Shown here: piece by piece, positions 1,379 through 32,616 of the stretch
Layout of the letters: every line of letters begins with the position of its first letter
How positions within the stretch are numbered: position 1 is the stretch's first letter
Assembly (NCBI GenBank): GCA_028725265.1
Contig: JAQYSN010000181.1
Coordinates: 1-35,244, forward strand
DNA from: Spirochaetales bacterium
GTDB taxonomy: Bacteria > Spirochaetota > Spirochaetia > Treponematales > Treponemataceae
DNA length: 35,244 nucleotides
Direction: 5' to 3'
Translations under genes and position numbers: made by a program
Notes under the pieces: model-generated
Database searches by the model: none
Told to the model about the DNA's origin: nothing
What the model saw: the letters and a program-made list of their open reading frames with translations, nothing else

Positions 1379-2734
1379 ATGAAAAATTTTCAAGTAGCTT
1401 ATATTCCAATTGGAGTTCCAACTTTCCATCTTGAAAGCGCACAAACTGAGTTTGATAAATCAGTTTCGCTTTTGACAAAACTTTCGAAATCCGTAGAAGC
1501 AGATCTTAAAGTTCCTTCCGAAATGCTTCTTTCAATTGATAAACTAAAAGCATTTATTGAAACAATCGAGCCAGATTTGATTGTCCTACAAAACATCACT
1601 TTCGCCAATGCTGCATACGCAAGCGAAGTCCTTAAAAACTTTGACTGCCCTATCCTACTTTGGACCTTGCGAGAACCTGTTATTGATGGCGGACGTCTCA
1701 GACTTAATTCTCTTACGGGAGCTTATTCTGCTGCAAATGCAATCAAGGAATTCCGTCCTGATGCAAAATTCGAATACATTTTCGGTGCTCCACAGGAAGA
1801 AAAAGTTGAAGCAAAACTCAGTTCGACAATTCGTGCCGCCTACATGGTATTCAAAATGAAGTCTCTCAAACTTGCAGCTATCGGTCACACACCGCAGGGT
1901 TTCGGTTTTGGTCGCGCAATGGATGCAGAAATGATGAAAACTTTCGGTGTTACGCTTGAATCAATCGAAGCACGCGAACTTATAGACAAAGCTAAATCAT
2001 TTTCGGATGACGACATCAAAGAATATCTCAAAGATGCTGAAAGCAAGATGTGCGGACTCGAAAATACACCTGAAAAAAACAGGATAGATTTCGCACGTTT
2101 GTACAGAGCCTACAGCGAGTATGTTAAAAACAACAACATCGGAGCGCTCGCAAGCCGCTGTTGGCCAGACTTTTTCACGGCATTCGGTACTCCGGTTTGT
2201 GCAGTTTTGGCAATGCTAAACGACATGGGAGTTGCCGCAAGTTGCGAAGCTGACACTTACGGCGCCCTTTCGATGTATATTTCTATGCAACTAACAGACA
2301 AAGCTTGTTTCTTTGGAGATCCCGTCTCTATGAACGAAGAAGAAAACACAATTACGTTCTGGCACTGTGGAACTGCGGCTTGCTCGCTTGCCCGAAAAGA
2401 CACAGGTGCAAAAGTTGACGTTCATTGCAACAGAAAAATTGGACCTACACTTGATTTTGGCTGTATTTCTTGCGATAATGTAACCATATTTAGAATTGGT
2501 AAAGATTGTAGAGGAAAATTCCGATTCTTCATTGCCGATGGAAAAGTTTTAGACAAGCCAAAGCAATTTAATGGAACATCAGTCGTTGTACAAACAAAAA
2601 ATTCTGCAGAAAAAATTGTTAACGAAAGTGTTCTTGAAGGTTGGGAACCTCATTTCGTAGTAGCCTATGGAGATATTACGAAAGAACTTACAACCATTGC
2701 TAATATGCTGAATATTGATATTAATATTTGGTAG
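1379..2734 (+). CDS. L-fucose/L-arabinose isomerase family protein
   Basis: 451-aa ORF with 'LWTLREPVIDGGRLRLNSLTGAYSAANAIKEF', 'CEADTYGALSMYISMQL' and 'FWHCGTAACSLA', features of the fucose isomerase-like family. Confidence 0.75.
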   Translation: MKNFQVAYIPIGVPTFHLESAQTEFDKSVSLLTKLSKSVEADLKVPSEMLLSIDKLKAFIETIEPDLIVLQNITFANAAYASEVLKNFDCPILLWTLREPVIDGGRLRLNSLTGAYSAANAIKEFRPDAKFEYIFGAPQEEKVEAKLSSTIRAAYMVFKMKSLKLAAIGHTPQGFGFGRAMDAEMMKTFGVTLESIEARELIDKAKSFSDDDIKEYLKDAESKMCGLENTPEKNRIDFARLYRAYSEYVKNNNIGALASRCWPDFFTAFGTPVCAVLAMLNDMGVAASCEADTYGALSMYISMQLTDKACFFGDPVSMNEEENTITFWHCGTAACSLARKDTGAKVDVHCNRKIGPTLDFGCISCDNVTIFRIGKDCRGKFRFFIADGKVLDKPKQFNGTSVVVQTKNSAEKIVNESVLEGWEPHFVVAYGDITKELTTIANMLNIDINIW

Positions 2735-2741
2735 GAAAAAA

Positions 2742-3839
2742 GTGAACAAACATGGAATGAACATGGAGCTGGTAAAAATACAAAACCGCTCCGTCATTCT
2801 GCATTGTATTAACGATGCAGGCTCTATTTCAAGAAAAGACATTGCAGAAAGGACAGGGCTTACGGCAGCAGCCGTTACCTTGATTTGTAACGAATTTATA
2901 CGTGACAAACTGATAATTGAAGGCGAGTCTGTAAAAAAAGAAATCGGATCGGGAGCAGGCCGAAGAAAGGTTCTGATCTCTATCGATTATAAATCAAACT
3001 ATTTTGTCGCAATTTCAATCGAAACAGACAGAACTGTCATTGCAATCACCGATATGCAGGGAAATCCTTCAAAGATTGAAAAGATCAAAACAAACAAAGA
3101 CTGCTCGCCAGAAGAGTTCCTTAATCAAATCTCCGAATGCACAAAAAAATTGATTTCTGAATGTCCAAATGAAGTTCGGGAAAAAATTTCCATAGGAGCT
3201 GTTTCAATTCCAGGAATCGTTGATAGCGAAAACGGCAAGAGTATACAGGCCTATGGTATCTGGAATGATGAAGTTGATGTCTGCGATATTCTTAAAGAAA
3301 AAACAGGAATTCCTTTCGTAATCGAAAACAATGTTATCGCTTTTGCACGAGCAGAACAGGTTTTTGCAACAGGAAAATACAAAGAAAACGTCCTTGTAAT
3401 AAAATGGGGACCTGGTGTTGGTGCTGCAAATTTCATTGAAAACCAAATTTACACAGGATTCAGAGGTCGTTCTGCAGAACTAGGACACTTTATCGTAGAC
3501 CCGAATGGAGAACAGTGTGTTTGCGGACAAAGAGGATGTCTTGAAACCTTCGTCTCGGCAAAGGCTCTCAGCGAAAAAAACGAAAAGGAAACAGAAGAAG
3601 CCATCGACAAATTTGCCATCACGATTGCAAACCTCGCCAGAGTTCTTACGCCAGACAGAGTCATTTTGTACGGAGAACTTGCGAAAGACGAAAAATATCA
3701 GAATATGCTGAAAGAATCAGCTAAAAAATACTATCGAAATTACACTGATAAAAAGATGCGCTATACAAAACTTGAAAGCTGCGAAGATTTCATCGGACCT
3801 GTTTCAGTTGCAATCGACGTTATTTTTCAAGGAAAATAA
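2742..3839 (+). CDS. ROK family transcriptional regulator (NagC/XylR type)
   Basis: N-terminal HTH (ISRKDIAERTGLTAAAVTLICNEFI) and the ROK zinc motif 'CVCGQRGCLE'. GTG at 2742 with 'aggaa' upstream is the likely start; the ORF track begins at 2715. Confidence 0.88.
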   Translation: MNKHGMNMELVKIQNRSVILHCINDAGSISRKDIAERTGLTAAAVTLICNEFIRDKLIIEGESVKKEIGSGAGRRKVLISIDYKSNYFVAISIETDRTVIAITDMQGNPSKIEKIKTNKDCSPEEFLNQISECTKKLISECPNEVREKISIGAVSIPGIVDSENGKSIQAYGIWNDEVDVCDILKEKTGIPFVIENNVIAFARAEQVFATGKYKENVLVIKWGPGVGAANFIENQIYTGFRGRSAELGHFIVDPNGEQCVCGQRGCLETFVSAKALSEKNEKETEEAIDKFAITIANLARVLTPDRVILYGELAKDEKYQNMLKESAKKYYRNYTDKKMRYTKLESCEDFIGPVSVAIDVIFQGK

Positions 3840-4499
3840 CTAAGACTCCATTACAAAAACGACCCCATCTCCTACAGTTATTGAAACTTCAGGAGATGCC
3901 CACTCATTGCTAATACCAATCGGAAAGTTATTGGTCAGAGTTATATCTTCAATGTCATATTTTGAGCCAGAAATAGAAATATTACGGGCTTTTTCTCCGA
4001 CGCTGAAAACAGAAAAAAACGAATAATCGCTTTTTGGAAAAATACATCGTTCTTTTGAAAGTACCGTACAAACACATCCTTCACCGAAAGCTTTAACCGA
4101 AATTCCATTTTGTTTAAGAAAAATCATGGCCTGAAGATTTGCAAAAGAATGATCGAGCCTTCCTCCGAACGCACAAAGAATATATACGGCTTCAAAACCA
4201 TGTTCAACACAATAGCGGGCTGCATACATCGTATCGGTGTCGTCTTTTTCACAAGGCAGTTTTTTTATGCTAATTTTATTTTCACAAGCTTTTTCAAAAG
4301 CTGCCTGATAATCCATGCTGTCAAAATCACCGATTAAAAGAGAGGTTTTGAGATTCAGTCTTTCGGCATTTTCAAAACCATAATCGCAGGAAATTACAAA
4401 ATCCGTTTTCTTAATCAAATCCTTCAAATCTTCGGGAATATTTGAAAATGGACCTCCAGACACTATCACACAAGTTTTTTTATTCATCATATTATCCAT
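3840..4499 (-). CDS. thiN: Thiamine diphosphokinase
   Basis: Motifs 'SCDYGFENAERLNLKTSLLIGDFDS', 'KDDTDTMYAARYC' and 'GAFGGRLDHSFANL'-type region (here 'CAFGGRLDHSFANLQAM'). Confidence 0.88.
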   Translation of the reverse strand: MDNMMNKKTCVIVSGGPFSNIPEDLKDLIKKTDFVISCDYGFENAERLNLKTSLLIGDFDSMDYQAAFEKACENKISIKKLPCEKDDTDTMYAARYCVEHGFEAVYILCAFGGRLDHSFANLQAMIFLKQNGISVKAFGEGCVCTVLSKERCIFPKSDYSFFSVFSVGEKARNISISGSKYDIEDITLTNNFPIGISNEWASPEVSITVGDGVVFVMES

Positions 4500-4506
4500 C
4501 AGTTTT

Positions 4507-4959
4507 TTAGATTCTTACTACAGTATAACGAACGCGGCCTTCTTCTATAGCCTTCTGAACCTCTTTTTCGCGCTTGCTTTGGATTGCAGAACCAGTTTTT
4601 ATTTCGATAAACAATATTTCATCAATTTTGCGCTCCTCAAGAGGTTTTTCATCATCCTTCGTCACAAATCCGATGAAATCAACAGGCTTTCCCAAAAATT
4701 GAACACATTCAGGGCTACATGGAAAATTCGGAAGATATGGAGCCAGTTGTTCTGAAATCTGACCGGTAATTACAGAACGAGATCTGTTTACGGCATCTTT
4801 TCGCTGTTTTTTAAACTCGCCGTGAAGTTTTATGCGCATATAGAGGCTTCCAATCAGTGCGCCCAAAACAAGAATCACAATAAATCCCATCGCACACAAA
4901 AACCAAAAAAGATGGGGTTTTGTTAAAAGATTTTGCAGAAACTCACTAGAAAGAACCAT
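4507..4959 (-). CDS. Holliday junction resolvase-related endonuclease-like membrane-anchored protein
   Basis: N-terminal TM helix followed by '...FLGKPVDFIGFV...KIDEILFIEIKTGSAIQSKREKEVQKAIEEGRVRYTVVRI', the COG4741-like pattern. Confidence 0.75.
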   Translation of the reverse strand: MVLSSEFLQNLLTKPHLFWFLCAMGFIVILVLGALIGSLYMRIKLHGEFKKQRKDAVNRSRSVITGQISEQLAPYLPNFPCSPECVQFLGKPVDFIGFVTKDDEKPLEERKIDEILFIEIKTGSAIQSKREKEVQKAIEEGRVRYTVVRI

Positions 4960-5022
4960 GCAGTTATTATATCATAAAAGAAAAATATAGTATAAAAGTT
5001 TTTAACTTTCGGAGCTAACTGT

Positions 5023-6231
5023 ATGAAAAAATCAGTCATATCTTTTATTCTTATTTTGTCACTTGTATGTGCCTGCATTTATGCTGAAAAATTTGAATTC
5101 AAATACCATGAAGGAGACTCTTACCGAATTCTTTCAACTGTACACGAAGATGTTCTTGTAAATGGTAAATTAAACCACAAAGCTGAAATCATCAATCGTA
5201 TTTCAGTAAAGGTAACTGGAATCGACAAAGAAGGTCGAGGAATCAATGAAGCACACTTTATGACGAGTGAACGATCTTTGACAACCGATTCAAATTCGCT
5301 CTACACTTGGGGTGAAGAATACGAAAGCGCATTTACAAGAGACAAATTCGGAGTTTACACGATATCTGATGAATATTTCATGCCTGTAGTACGAGATGTT
5401 CCTATTTTCCCGGACAAAGACCTTAAGGTTGGCGAAAAGTGGTCTTATGAAGGACATGAAGCCCATGACTTGAGAAATTCATTCGGAATTGAAAAGCCAT
5501 TCAAGGTACCATTCACCGCAAACTATACTTATTACGGAGAAACAAAAAAGGACGATAAAAAATACCACATCATTAAAGCAAGTTACACGCTTTACTACGA
5601 CAGTCCGAGCACTTCAAAAACAGATTTCTATCCTATTTCAACAATGGGATTTTCAGATCAGACAATATTGTGGGATAATGAACGAGGAATGATTCAGTCT
5701 TATAACGAAAAATTCCGAATTCAGATGGAAACAAACACAGGAGACATCCTTCTGTTCAAGGGAACAGCTAGTGCCGAAGTTCAGGACATCGTTATCGTAA
5801 AAGATGAAAAGACACTTGAAAAAGTTAAGGAACATATTTCTGACCTTGGTATTAAAAATACCGATGTAAAGGCCACTGAAAAAGGTCTTACAATCAACAT
5901 TGAAAACATCAATTTCAAGGCTGATTCAGATATTCTTGAAGAAAGTGAAAAAGCAAAACTCCAGCAGATTACAGAAATTCTTAAGACTTTCCCTTACAAC
6001 GATATTCTTGTTGAAGGACACACTGCCCTTGTCGGAACAGAAGAATCATGCAGGGAACTTTCTGAAAAACGTGCAAATGCCGTTGCCGAATACCTTATCG
6101 AGGCAGGCGCAAAAGACAGACAGCACATATTCACAAAGGGGCTTGGAGCTTCAAAACCTATCGCTTCTAATTCAACGACTGAGGGTATGTCAAAGAACCG
6201 ACGTGTTGAAATTACAATCATGGAGCAGTAA
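5023..6231 (+). CDS. OmpA-family protein with signal peptide and C-terminal peptidoglycan-binding domain
   Basis: Signal peptide; C-terminal 'INFKADSDIL...ILVEGHTALVGTEESCRELSEKRANAVAEYLIEAGA...GLGASKPIASNSTTEGMSKNRRVEI'. Confidence 0.9.
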   Translation: MKKSVISFILILSLVCACIYAEKFEFKYHEGDSYRILSTVHEDVLVNGKLNHKAEIINRISVKVTGIDKEGRGINEAHFMTSERSLTTDSNSLYTWGEEYESAFTRDKFGVYTISDEYFMPVVRDVPIFPDKDLKVGEKWSYEGHEAHDLRNSFGIEKPFKVPFTANYTYYGETKKDDKKYHIIKASYTLYYDSPSTSKTDFYPISTMGFSDQTILWDNERGMIQSYNEKFRIQMETNTGDILLFKGTASAEVQDIVIVKDEKTLEKVKEHISDLGIKNTDVKATEKGLTINIENINFKADSDILEESEKAKLQQITEILKTFPYNDILVEGHTALVGTEESCRELSEKRANAVAEYLIEAGAKDRQHIFTKGLGASKPIASNSTTEGMSKNRRVEITIMEQ

Positions 6232-25975: not shown

Positions 25976-26647
25976 TTAATTTTCTACGAGCGTATAAATA
26001 TAGCCGCCGCCACCGAGTGTAAAGGAATTTTCAGTGTAGGTATATTCGTAAAGCCTACCAACCATTCTAGCTGATCCTTTAATGTGCATTTGTAGGTAAA
26101 ATTCCACATAATCTTCGAAAGTACTGCCACCTGACCATTCATCGCACTCAGCCTTATTATCATTGTAGGCTTTCTGCATTTCTTCTTTTGAAGTATCCTC
26201 ATAAAAATGTTCTGCCAGATAAGCCGAGCTCAAATTTATATATTCTTGTGGAGTTGCTTGTTCTTTTATCACTCCTGTAACAGGATCCTCCCACCGCAGA
26301 TACTTATATCTCATATATAATTTAGTGCCATCATAGGAATACTCGTATGTAGAACCAAGTTGTGTTCTATTTACAGTACCATCACTAGCAAAAATAAAAT
26401 CATCATACGAAATACTACCATCAACATATTCAGTTTCATGCCTAAATGTTTTTCCAGCAAATGGGTCCTCTCCAACGCTTGCAGGCAAATTTGGAAGAGT
26501 AACAATAGGTACGGCAACCGTTATGCCGTCAGGAGTCGTTACAGTCTGTTCATTCGTTTCACTCGGAACGTTGGCAGGCTCCGGACAGCCTGTAAACATT
26601 ACCATTGCACAAAAAACCAAGGCAACCGTCAACATATTTTTTTTCAT
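25976..26647 (-). CDS. Predicted lipoprotein of unknown function
   Basis: Signal and lipobox 'LVFCAMVMFTGC'; no recognised domain. Confidence 0.65.
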   Translation of the reverse strand: MKKNMLTVALVFCAMVMFTGCPEPANVPSETNEQTVTTPDGITVAVPIVTLPNLPASVGEDPFAGKTFRHETEYVDGSISYDDFIFASDGTVNRTQLGSTYEYSYDGTKLYMRYKYLRWEDPVTGVIKEQATPQEYINLSSAYLAEHFYEDTSKEEMQKAYNDNKAECDEWSGGSTFEDYVEFYLQMHIKGSARMVGRLYEYTYTENSFTLGGGGYIYTLVEN

Positions 26648-26841: not shown

Positions 26842-27564
26842 CTACAGTACTCGCTGCAAAAACTGCTTGAGCCGTTCGTTCTGTGGATGGTTAAAAATCT
26901 GGTCCGGAGTACCTTGTTCCAAAATCTTTCCTTCATACATAAACCAGACTCTGTCTGCAACTTCGCGAGCAAACCCCATTTCATGGGTAACTACGGCCAT
27001 AGTCATTCCGTTATCAGCCAATTGTTTCATTACGTTAAGAACTTCGCCTACCATTTCCGGGTCAAGCGCCGACGTCGGTTCATCAAAAAGAATGACATCA
27101 GGATTCATTGCAAGAGAGCGCACAATTGCAATTCGTTGTTTTTGACCACCGCTCAAAGTCGACGGATAAGAGTCGGCCTTTTCTTCAAGTCCAACCATCT
27201 TTAAAAGTTCGATTGCCTGCGCTTTCGCTTCTTCCTTAGACTTTAGCTTCAAGGTCAATGGTGCAAGAGTTATGTTTTCCATGACGGTCAAATGAGGAAA
27301 CAAATTGAAGTGTTGGAACACCATCCCCATTTTCTGACGAATTTTATTGATATCAGTTTTTTTAGAAAGGATGTTTGTGCCTTCAAAATAAATTTCGCCC
27401 GAATCAGGCTTTTCAAGCAGATTTAGGCATCGTAAAAAAGTCGATTTACCGCTTCCCGAAGGTCCGATGATAACAACTTTCTCACCTTTTTTGATTGTTT
27501 CAGAAACGCCCCGTAATACATGAAGTTTTCCAAAACTGATGTCAAGATTCCTAGTTTCTATCAC
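26842..27564 (-). CDS. Polar amino-acid ABC transporter, ATP-binding protein
   Basis: '[25 protein letters not shown]', '[40 protein letters not shown]'. Confidence 0.95.
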
Positions 27565-28261
27565 TTTTTGCCAGCCTTTTTTCGAGCAATGAGAAAAGTT
27601 TTGTAAGTCCCAAAGTCAAAATTAAATAAATTACAGCACATGTCAAAAGAGGAATCCATGCGTTATATGTTGCGTTACGAATCATATCACCTGATTTTGT
27701 CAAATCCATTACAGCGATAAAACTTGCGACAGAAGTTTCTTTTATCAAAACGATAAATTCACTCGTATATGTTGGAAGTGCAGCTTTTACGGCCTGAGGG
27801 AGAACTATTTTTATCAGAGTCTGTCTCCTGCTCAAACCAAGAGAACGCCCTGCTTCTGTCTGACCACTGTCCACGCCCTGAATACCAGCTCGGAAAATTT
27901 CCGTACAATATGCCCCAGAATTTATACCGTATGCAAGGATAGCAACAAGAAGACGATCCAAACCAAGAGGAGCAAAAATTACGAAATAAAAAATCATCAA
28001 CTGGGTTGCAAGAGGGATACCTCGAATGACGGTCGTATATACATTAGAAATGCCGTTCAAAACTTTTTTATCCGAAATTTTCATCAATGCAAAAATGAAT
28101 CCCAAAATCGTACCGATGATAATCGCACAGAACGCAATCAAAAGCGTACAGCCAAGACCTTTCGCCATCAAAAGCCATCGGCCCTTATCAATCATCGTAG
28201 CGTAAAACGCATTAAACATCTTTATGCCCTCCAAAAAAACTTGCGAAGCCTCAAAAAGCAC
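27551..28261 (-). CDS. Polar amino-acid ABC transporter, permease
   Basis: '[17 protein letters not shown]', '[48 protein letters not shown]'; overlaps the ATPase gene. Confidence 0.95.
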
Positions 28262-28326
28262 ACTTCAATAAAAACAAAAATGCCGGCAGCTTATGAAAAG
28301 TTTACCGGCACATTCGCATAAAAAAT

Positions 28327-29121
28327 TTATTTTTTGATAATAATTACCTGTTCAGAAGCAAAATAACTGTCAGAGAAATCTACGTTCTGTTTTCTCTCTT
28401 CTGTAACTGACATACCAGCAGCGATGAAATCAATTACGCCAGACTGAAGAGCAGGAATCAAGCTGTCAAAAGCCATATCAACAACTTCAAGCTTAGCTTT
28501 TGCTGTTGCAGCAATTTTCTCACCCATTGAAATATCAAAACCTACGATATCACCTTCAACATATTCGAATGGAGGAAATGTTGCATTTGTTCCAAGTTTC
28601 AAAACTCTCTGTGAGTCTGTTACGACAGATTCTGGAATAACGATTGCACCATCAGCAGGCATAAAAGCTGCAACCAATGCTTCGTATTCTCCGTTTTCTT
28701 TCATCGTAGCAATTGTATTGTTGATTGCATTCAAAAGGTCTGCATTTCCCTTTTTAACTGCAATTGCATATTCTTCTTTATTTTCTGCAAAATATGGATC
28801 ACGAACGATAGCCAATTTCGGATTTCGAGCTACGATTTCCTGTGCAGGAAGTTCATCCAAAACAACAGCATCTATTGAACCATTCATCAAGTCCAATGCA
28901 GCGTCAATACCTGACTTAAACGAAGACATCTTTGCTCCTGGCAAATTTTCTTCTACCCACATTTCACCAGTTGTGCCTGTCTGTACACCAATTTTCTTTC
29001 CGTCCAAATCAGCAATACCATTGATAACAACAGCATTCTTTTTCTTACAAGAACTCAATGTAAGGACAGATGCTACTGCCAAAACACAAGCAAATATTGA
29101 AATAATTTTTCTAACTTTCAT
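28327..29121 (-). CDS. Polar amino-acid ABC transporter substrate-binding lipoprotein with circularly permuted SBP_bac_3 fold
   Basis: Lipobox 'TLSSC'; lobe-2 motifs ('DLDGKKIGVQTGTTGEMWVEENLPGA', 'DAVVLDELPA') precede lobe-1 motifs ('LKLGTNATFPPFEYVEGDIVGFD', 'IAAGMSVTEERKQNVDFSDSYF'). RBS ggagg supports MKVRK start at 29121. Confidence 0.92.
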   Translation of the reverse strand: MKVRKIISIFACVLAVASVLTLSSCKKKNAVVINGIADLDGKKIGVQTGTTGEMWVEENLPGAKMSSFKSGIDAALDLMNGSIDAVVLDELPAQEIVARNPKLAIVRDPYFAENKEEYAIAVKKGNADLLNAINNTIATMKENGEYEALVAAFMPADGAIVIPESVVTDSQRVLKLGTNATFPPFEYVEGDIVGFDISMGEKIAATAKAKLEVVDMAFDSLIPALQSGVIDFIAAGMSVTEERKQNVDFSDSYFASEQVIIIKK

Positions 29122-29758: not shown

Positions 29759-31195
29759 TTATTCTTTTAAGCCAATTTCATTGAGTTTTCGGTGATAATT
29801 CATCCACCATTCAAGTTCATTGGCATTTTTTTCAGATTCTTCGGCCTTGAACTGTTGGTCAACAGCGGCAATCTGGCTCTTGCACCTCATTACACTTTCT
29901 GCAATACAAGGTTCAAAATGAGTTCCGCTTGATTCAGCAAAAATCTTCATGGCATCATCCAATGTCATCGGTGACTTATAAAGACGCTGACTTATAAGTG
30001 CATCCAAAACATCGGCGGCAGCCATAATTCGAGCAGAAAGCGGTATTTCCAAACCGATTATATTGGAAGGATAACCCGTTCCATCCCATTTTTCATGATG
30101 ACAATAAGCCATTTCAATCGCAATTTCGTTAAATCGTCCATCACCTATCTGCGGTAAAAATTTCAGAAGTTTTTTTCCTTCCGTCGTATGAGTCTTCATC
30201 AATTCAAATTCTTCTGGCGTAAAACGGCTCGTGCTGTTCAAAATGCTTTCTGGTATATGAACCTTTCCGATATCGTGAAGAAATGCAGCCATCTCATAAT
30301 AGCGGATTTCTTCGTCCGTCAGTACATCCTGATAAAATCCATGGTCTCTAAGGTCTCTGGCAATAATTCCGACATAAACCTGTGTATGCAGGATGTGGTT
30401 TCCAGTAAACAAATCATGGCTTCCCAATACCTCGCCTATAAACAGAATGATTTTATCCTGGATTTCAAAAAGATGATACGTATTTTTTATCAATTCGTCG
30501 TTTGCTGCAAAAACCATGTTCGATTCATCTTGAAGCCTATACTTGACTTCATCAGCTTTTTCCTGCTCTTTCTGAAGCTGATCATAATTAGTCTTAAGAT
30601 GTTTTTCTATGGTCATCGCTACCAAGAACGAAATAAAATATTCTATAGAAAAGAAAACAATTGCCGAAAGCAACCATTCCTTTCTAGTATAAATGACGCC
30701 GGATATCGGTTCCATCCAAATTTCATGTTTAGAACGTACTATCAGTGAACTTATCATTGTCACGTATCCAAAGATGGAATTTACCAAAACCGTTTTCTGA
30801 CTATAGTACATGCAACTCAAAAAAGGAATCAATCCATAAGTGATATAAATACTTACATCACCTTGTGAGGCAAGAGTTCCCACAAATAATGAACAAAACC
30901 AAATTTGATAATAAGCAGAAAGTCGCGTACATTTTTCATTTTTTATTCCGTTTAAAATGATTGAAAGAACGCTCAGCAAAAATGATAAACCGAATAAAAC
31001 CTTCAAAAATAAGGGATCAATCGAATAAAAGCCAACTCGGGACAAAACCATAAAAAGAGGAGAGAGCAAAATAGTCGAACACAAAATCAATTCGATAAGA
31101 TGGCTGACTTCTTCAATATTCTTTAAATAAAACTTATTCTTTCGCTTGAACAAACTCAAACTGTTCTTTTTCTTTTTGTTTCGGCCTTTTATCAT
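29759..31195 (-). CDS. Membrane HD-GYP domain protein (putative c-di-GMP phosphodiesterase)
   Basis: N-terminal TM region; 'AAFLHDIGKVHIPESIL', 'YCHHEKWDGTGYPSNIIGLEIPLSARIMAAADVLDALIS'. Confidence 0.92.
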   Translation of the reverse strand: MIKGRNKKKKNSLSLFKRKNKFYLKNIEEVSHLIELILCSTILLSPLFMVLSRVGFYSIDPLFLKVLFGLSFLLSVLSIILNGIKNEKCTRLSAYYQIWFCSLFVGTLASQGDVSIYITYGLIPFLSCMYYSQKTVLVNSIFGYVTMISSLIVRSKHEIWMEPISGVIYTRKEWLLSAIVFFSIEYFISFLVAMTIEKHLKTNYDQLQKEQEKADEVKYRLQDESNMVFAANDELIKNTYHLFEIQDKIILFIGEVLGSHDLFTGNHILHTQVYVGIIARDLRDHGFYQDVLTDEEIRYYEMAAFLHDIGKVHIPESILNSTSRFTPEEFELMKTHTTEGKKLLKFLPQIGDGRFNEIAIEMAYCHHEKWDGTGYPSNIIGLEIPLSARIMAAADVLDALISQRLYKSPMTLDDAMKIFAESSGTHFEPCIAESVMRCKSQIAAVDQQFKAEESEKNANELEWWMNYHRKLNEIGLKE

Positions 31196-32616
31196 AATGC
31201 ACCGCCTTTCTCGTTAAGCGGCTTATGAAAATTCTGCCACCACTCTTTGTCCAACTCGTTAGAAGAATTTTCCTTTCTGGTAAATTCACGGTTCATGTAT
31301 TCAATTTTATCCCGACAATGTAAAACCGATTCTACAATGCAAGGCTCAAAGTGAGAGCCGGCGTTGTCACGGAATACGTTCATGGCATCGTTCAGCGTCA
31401 TAGGCTGCTTATAAAGACGGCGACTAATAAGAGCATCCAAAACATCGGCAGCAGCCATAATACGAGCCGAAAGAGGAATTTCTTCTCCGACGAGCCCCTG
31501 AGGATAGCCCGTTCCATCCCATTTTTCGTGATGAGAATAGGCCATTTCCTTTGCAATTTCATTAAACTTTCCGTCATCAATTTTTGGAAGATAATTCAAA
31601 AGCTTCAGTCCTTCTGCAGGATGCGTCTTCATAAGCTCAAATTCTTCTGGCGTAAATTTCTCGCTCTTGTTCAAAATACCTTCTGGAACATGAACCTTTC
31701 CGATATCGTGCATGAAAGCCGCCGTTGAATAAAGTTGTATCATTTCGTCCGTCAAAATATCCGAATAATAACCGTCTTTTTGCATCTGTTCTGCAATGAT
31801 TACGACATAAGCCCTTGTATGTGCAATATGATTTCCAGTAAACAAATCATGACTGCCTAAAACTTCTGCCACAAAACTGATAATCTTAATATGATTCTGC
31901 TGGATTCGGTTGTTGTAGTTTCGCCGTTTTTCTTCCGATTCCATCAAAAGGGATTTACTTTCCTCAAGCTGATTATTAAACTGATTTTTTTTATCAAGAG
32001 TGATTTGAAAATCTTTCAAAAGTTTTGAAGAACGTGATGAAAGAGAAATCGCTACAAGATAAGCAAAAACAAATTCAATCGTAAAACCACTTGAAAGATA
32101 TATAAACGTCATAAACTGAGAATATGGCTGATTTGAACTTTCACAGACCATGTAGATATCGTGACTTCTAAACCAAACTGAAACAATCATCAGGATATAG
32201 GCAAAAGCGGAAGAATAATTGACAAGCCTTCTGTTTAGGTAAACACAACTAATGAGAGGCGGCAACACGAAAATAATGAAAATCGGAACAAAATTCAGCA
32301 AGGCAAATCCCGTAATCAGAACGCTTAGCGACAAAACAGAAAAATACATCGAAACGACCTGCATTTTTTTGTCATTGCGATACTTCTTGGAATTTAAAAT
32401 AAATTCAATTATGTTTATAACGATGTTAATGACAGTGTAAACTGCAAGCCAAAGAAAAGAAGTCTTTATCGGAGCAAAAAAAGATGCGGCCAACATTACT
32501 ACAGGAATCAGCAACGTAAAGTAGTAAAATCTCTGAAATTCCATGTTGACCCGTTGGACATTGTCTTCTATGTTTATTTTTTGTTTGTTATTCGACATTA
32601 ATGTCATGCTCCTCAA
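31192..32616 (-). CDS. Membrane HD-GYP domain protein, paralogue of the adjacent gene
   Basis: 'AAFMHDIGKVHVPEGILN', 'YSHHEKWDGTGYPQGLVGEEIPLSARIMAAADVLDALIS'; overlaps the downstream paralogue by 4 bp. Confidence 0.92.
   Translation of the reverse strand: MRSMTLMSNNKQKINIEDNVQRVNMEFQRFYYFTLLIPVVMLAASFFAPIKTSFLWLAVYTVINIVINIIEFILNSKKYRNDKKMQVVSMYFSVLSLSVLITGFALLNFVPIFIIFVLPPLISCVYLNRRLVNYSSAFAYILMIVSVWFRSHDIYMVCESSNQPYSQFMTFIYLSSGFTIEFVFAYLVAISLSSRSSKLLKDFQITLDKKNQFNNQLEESKSLLMESEEKRRNYNNRIQQNHIKIISFVAEVLGSHDLFTGNHIAHTRAYVVIIAEQMQKDGYYSDILTDEMIQLYSTAAFMHDIGKVHVPEGILNKSEKFTPEEFELMKTHPAEGLKLLNYLPKIDDGKFNEIAKEMAYSHHEKWDGTGYPQGLVGEEIPLSARIMAAADVLDALISRRLYKQPMTLNDAMNVFRDNAGSHFEPCIVESVLHCRDKIEYMNREFTRKENSSNELDKEWWQNFHKPLNEKGGAL

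Follow-up and report, generated by a model that had tools for sequence, protein, structure and literature searches.

How did an amino-acid-binding lipoprotein come to carry its two halves in reversed order? The question is raised by one gene of the window, the whole 35,244-nucleotide stretch of spirochaete DNA analysed here. A preliminary description had taken this gene to encode a naturally circularly permuted member of the SBP_bac_3 family (PF00497), with each half present once, the conserved positions retained, and normal permease and ATPase genes beside it. The gene is a single open frame starting with MKVRKII...LTLSSC, and a GGAGG sequence lies just 5' of its ATG. The features of the locus are collected in Table 1.

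Table 1. Features of the permuted binding-protein gene and of its operon
Feature	Position	Strand	Basis
Circularly permuted SBP_bac_3 lipoprotein, 264 aa	28327..29121	(-)	Profile matches; kept in 90/196 family genomes
Lipoprotein signal peptide, residues 1-24; lipobox LSSC, then lipidated Cys25	29050..29121	(-)	Sequence
Canonical second half, now first; residues 33-157	28651..29025	(-)	Profile matches; secondary structure of the model
Linker from old C terminus to old N terminus, MPADGAIVIPESVVTDSQR	28606..28662	(-)	Sequence comparison
Canonical first half, now last; residues 173-264	28330..28605	(-)	PF00497 model 1-92
Strong GC hairpin with U-run, terminator- or attenuator-like	28274..28317	(-)	Fold -19.1 kcal/mol, z -4.4
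Permease, PF00528, polar amino-acid type; start codon uncertain	27551..28261	(-)	Profile matches
ATPase, GlnQ-like ABC_tran	26842..27564	(-)	Profile matches

A Pfam search of the protein gave a PF00497 match of 120.5 bits (gathering cut-off of 26.4), which was split into two stretches. Model positions 1-92 corresponded to residues 174-264, and in the genome scan model positions 97-130 fell at 28660-28854, so that the later part of the model leads in the protein. The match became collinear only after the two pieces were swapped, in agreement with the preliminary description. The TIGR01096, GlnH and ArtJ models likewise needed two stretches. With the pieces swapped in silico, TIGR01096 gave one match from 26 to 249 of 250 with 170.9 bits, compared to 159.9 bits for the unswapped sequence, and the GlnH, ArtI, ArtJ and HisJ models each gave one match. 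The best-scoring model was that for Lys/Arg/Orn (TIGR01096), yet the score was far under its curated cut-off. Only 31 bases separate the upstream DJ-1 gene from the start codon, so that there is no room upstream for a hidden, in-frame second copy of lobe 1. The protein is thus made of the SBP_bac_3 halves, once each and in reversed order, a swap rather than a duplication, and the conserved positions are retained. In Pfam it matched neither Peripla_BP (type I sugar-binding) nor an OpuAC family.

The layout first described held for the linker, of approximately 18 residues (residues ~155-172), but the cut into two clean halves did not. Besides lobe 2 and the second hinge strand, the first-placed half keeps the helices at the C-terminal end of lobe 1 (residues ~127-153), so that the lobes as such are not cleanly exchanged. 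The last-placed half reads LKLGTNATFPPFEY...AAGMSVTEERKQNVDFS...EQVIIIKK, where EQVIIIKK, the first hinge strand, forms the protein end and marks the position of the cut. The motif MPxDGxIxIP in the linker is kept among spirochaetes. Gln47, Thr50, Asp89, Thr178 and Arg243 are among the residues invariant across 46 permuted sequences, and we take them, by alignment to E. coli GlnH, to lie at or beside ligand-contact positions; Arg243 and Asp89 would presumably be the GlnH-type contacts of the alpha-amino acid.

Structure prediction, proposed as a check in the preliminary description, gave a confident AlphaFold2 model (46 permuted sequences; pLDDT 89.8, pTM 0.79), in which strands 116-118, 121-123 and 258-263 are located at the expected hinge. 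The best match in a sequential fold search was the GlnPQ SBD1-SBD2 tandem (6h30), which was also the top PDB match by sequence, in which the sequence match passes from SBD1 (lobe 2) into SBD2 (lobe 1). Sequential alignment to single binding proteins gave TM values of approximately 0.3-0.5, which a permutant would be expected to give but which are in themselves not informative. Among solved structures no permuted member was found, and the tandem 6h30 alone spans the junction. In the GlnH-type topology, the lobes of a protein cut in its first hinge strand would stay connected by one covalent crossover, not two, and a lipid anchor at the N terminus would sit on lobe 2 rather than on lobe 1.

The permease and ATPase genes lie directly downstream on the same strand, as they do in most relatives, and are normal, as first noted. 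The hairpin sits between the binding-protein and permease genes, and this position would be in keeping with the excess in which binding proteins are usually made relative to the permease. Among the loci compared, the upstream DJ-1/PfpI gene was found only in a 95% identical relative and is thus not a conserved partner. No Rfam match was found within the window. Riboswitches were considered as a guide to the substrate, and 20 loci gave a single T-box (L057:8039-8259), located not before the binding-protein gene but before a different one, leucyl-tRNA synthetase by eye. Further downstream of the ABC operon, a 223-aa lipoprotein (25976-26647, minus strand) is devoid of any Pfam match. Two adjacent paralogous membrane proteins (29759-31195 and 31192-32616, minus strand) possess an HD domain resembling, by eye only, HD-GYP phosphodiesterases.

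Homologues with the same order are present in spirochaetes, as the preliminary description had suggested looking for. A full-length same-order match was observed in 90 of the 196 sampled genomes of the window's family, with two further same-order genes split by contig ends, and ten other genomes possessed a close canonical-order orthologue instead. The scan of the genome collection showed the permuted order in about 50 spirochaete loci and, among Bacillota, in Drancourtella massiliensis, a Lachnospiraceae genome and a Bacillota MAG. The isolates concerned include Treponema sp. JC4 and T. bryantii strains as well as D. massiliensis. In the Lachnospiraceae (the family of locus L058), at least 82 of the 396 sampled genomes gave a full-length match, a lower bound with six candidates scored per genome. 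The gene is under purifying selection, with a Ka/Ks of 0.026/0.495 (~0.05) against the 95% identical relative.

The permuted order occurs as free lipoproteins and as fusions of a permuted (2-1) module to a permease (2-1-TMD), and in spirochaetes also as (2-1)x2- and (2-1)x3-permease arrays. The divergent spirochaete proteins of these three fused types measure 500-1047 aa. In eight of them (L209, L211-L216 and L221, 780-1047 aa), two or three divergent 2-1 modules stand in tandem before the permease; the differing modules suggest that one permease serves several binding specificities. One of the 82 Lachnospiraceae matches (L187 in genome G397, 2413-5331) was a 973-aa protein in which a canonical (1-2)x3 array of three nearly identical modules is joined to a permease, and it is possible that it represents an intermediate between the lobe orders. 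The remaining 25 long Lachnospiraceae frames, read individually, were all 2-1-TMD. At locus L184 (3424-5184, genome G314), two adjacent permuted binding-protein genes precede a single permease, and the first of the two has a long branch.

When both lobes, the permease and the ATPase were concatenated, the tree grouped nine canonical Treponema orthologues with the permuted L174 and L175 and placed this group within the clade of permuted spirochaete genes (100/99 and 100/98). Forcing the permuted spirochaete genes into a single clade was rejected (p-AU 0.00125). Trees of each lobe taken separately, and of the permease, likewise place the canonical Treponema genes with L174 and L175, and this agreement indicates that they are not lobe chimeras. 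All of the canonical Treponema proteins carry a C-terminal tail of 13-14 residues, MPxDGx(I/V)x(I/V), with Glu for Asp in one, and this tail, for example AFMPVDGQIRVLSASDL, corresponds to the first part of the linker in permuted proteins, AFMPVDGNIVIPE.... Every other canonical relative lacks the MPxDGx tail, including the nearest spirochaete ones (L269-L272), and finishes at the last helix or in an unrelated tail. The spirochaete ancestor was reconstructed as permuted at 0.93, and the Lachnospiraceae ancestor came out undecided (0.49). The nesting, the concordant trees, the shared tail and the permuted ancestor all argue for a reversible lobe order, and we consider it rather likely that the canonical Treponema orthologues (about 10 of the 196 genomes) go back to a permuted ancestor that underwent circular permutation a second time. 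However, a canonical ancestor that already carried the tail and was permuted twice independently would fit too, as a tail of 13 residues and a leader of 5 add up to the linker of 18. On the wider tree, four order switches at equal cost compare with five when only gains are allowed, and the likelihoods of the reversible and irreversible models are close (-19.5 and -19.7, respectively).

This wider tree resulted from a change in sampling. The early trees had been seeded by similarity to the permuted protein and favoured a single ancient permutation followed by later reversals. Permease-based sampling then added many canonical Lachnospiraceae and some spirochaete orthologues, which weakened the support for a single origin, and the wider tree separates reversals from repeated gains in the Treponema subgroup only. 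Two genes cut by contig ends (L055 and L061) were excluded from the later trees, and the divergent permease-fused arrays were placed by a permease tree predating the wider sampling. Among the 30 nearest Lachnospiraceae permeases, 16 accompany a permuted and 13 a canonical protein, one being cut by a contig end, and the canonical Lachnospiraceae proteins show ordinary short C termini with no linker relic. This intermixing would be expected if canonical ancestors had been permuted several times independently, each time at the same hinge point, and no reversal had followed; five such gains suffice. We hold this to be the less probable course, at perhaps one chance in three, as the cut would have had to fall five separate times in almost the same spot, and as this course, taken alone, leaves unexplained the tail MPxDGxI shared solely with the permuted linker. 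A misassembly, frameshift or pseudogene, which the fragmented draft genome of the window (257 contigs, 87.7% complete) might have suggested, is already refuted by independent genomes, since about 90 family genomes, and isolates too, repeat the order, with frames free of stops and a low Ka/Ks. Repeated switching of the lobe order is well supported, and its direction is supported in Treponema only.

Taken together, the swapped order, the single halves, the many genomes, the purifying selection, the operon and the confident fold lead us to propose that the gene product very probably works as an amino-acid substrate-binding lipoprotein, naturally circularly permuted, and feeds the adjoining permease and ATPase. 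In this model the protein would keep the usual two-lobed fold, the old termini being bridged by the 18-residue linker and the new termini falling in the first hinge strand. Such an arrangement would place the lipid anchor on lobe 2 rather than on lobe 1 and leave a single covalent crossover between the lobes. It may also alter lobe closure or anchoring, as the preliminary description put forward. The amino acid would be bound in the cleft and then handed to a homodimeric permease. The swapped order probably arose, and at times probably flipped back, when a gene was duplicated in tandem and in frame and the outer lobes were then lost: trimming of the outer lobes would convert (1-2)n into 2-1 and (2-1)n into 1-2, with the arrays as natural intermediates. 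On balance, we are inclined to see circular permutation as reversible in nature, with lobe order flipping repeatedly, plausibly through tandem arrays, and with the Treponema subgroup back in canonical order and retaining a piece of the linker as a C-terminal fossil.

The closest known proteins are the family-3 polar amino-acid binding proteins (PF00497: GlnH, ArtJ, TmArgBP and the SBDs of GlnPQ), with which the permuted protein shares homologous halves, operon partners and conserved positions. It differs from them in the reversed halves and, presumably, in the anchor on lobe 2 and the one hinge crossover instead of two. The GlnPQ-type SBD1-SBD2-permease fusions (6h30) resemble the arrays described here in joining tandem binding proteins to a permease, the type of array able to yield a permutant, but their modules are canonical (1-2), whereas the 2-1 order prevails among the arrays of this study. 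A lipid-anchored binding protein known to be circularly permuted in nature is TpMglB-2 (Tp0684) of T. pallidum, a glucose-binding lipoprotein which binds its ligand and changes conformation, and whose permutation was reported in treponemes and Gram-positive gut bacteria (PMC4990184). The hosts are of the same kind, but TpMglB-2, of the type Ic class, is a type I sugar binder of another family, in which the first three strands of the N-lobe are at the C terminus and a fourth hinge crossover is added. A search for a TpMglB-2-like Peripla_BP_4 gene in the genome of the window gave one match under the cut-off, falling by eye in another kind of ABC binding protein. The glycine betaine-binding proteins OpuAC and ProX differ from each other by a circular permutation (PMC2395249), and provide another natural case among bilobal binding proteins, in a different family and for a different ligand. 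No report of a permuted family-3 amino-acid-binding protein was found in the open-licence papers searched. The permutation is real, widespread and apparently functional; as far as this literature goes it is new for family 3, although the kind of event is known. Its unusual part is the repeated and probably reversible flipping of the lobe order.

Profile searches break the permuted proteins into two partial matches, and module boundaries in tandem arrays may be misdrawn. The family-3 binding proteins serve as models for Venus-flytrap closure, ancestral reconstruction and biosensor design, where a fixed lobe order is normally assumed. Orthologues differing in order, together with the tandem and permease-fused forms, provide a direct test bed for segment order, hinge crossovers and anchor site, which would address their effects on ligand binding and on permease docking. 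The permuted order is common to many gut bacteria, and the protein of the window belongs to the nutrient uptake of a gut Treponema. Lobe order appears not to be fixed in such proteins, and to have flipped several times within one transporter family.
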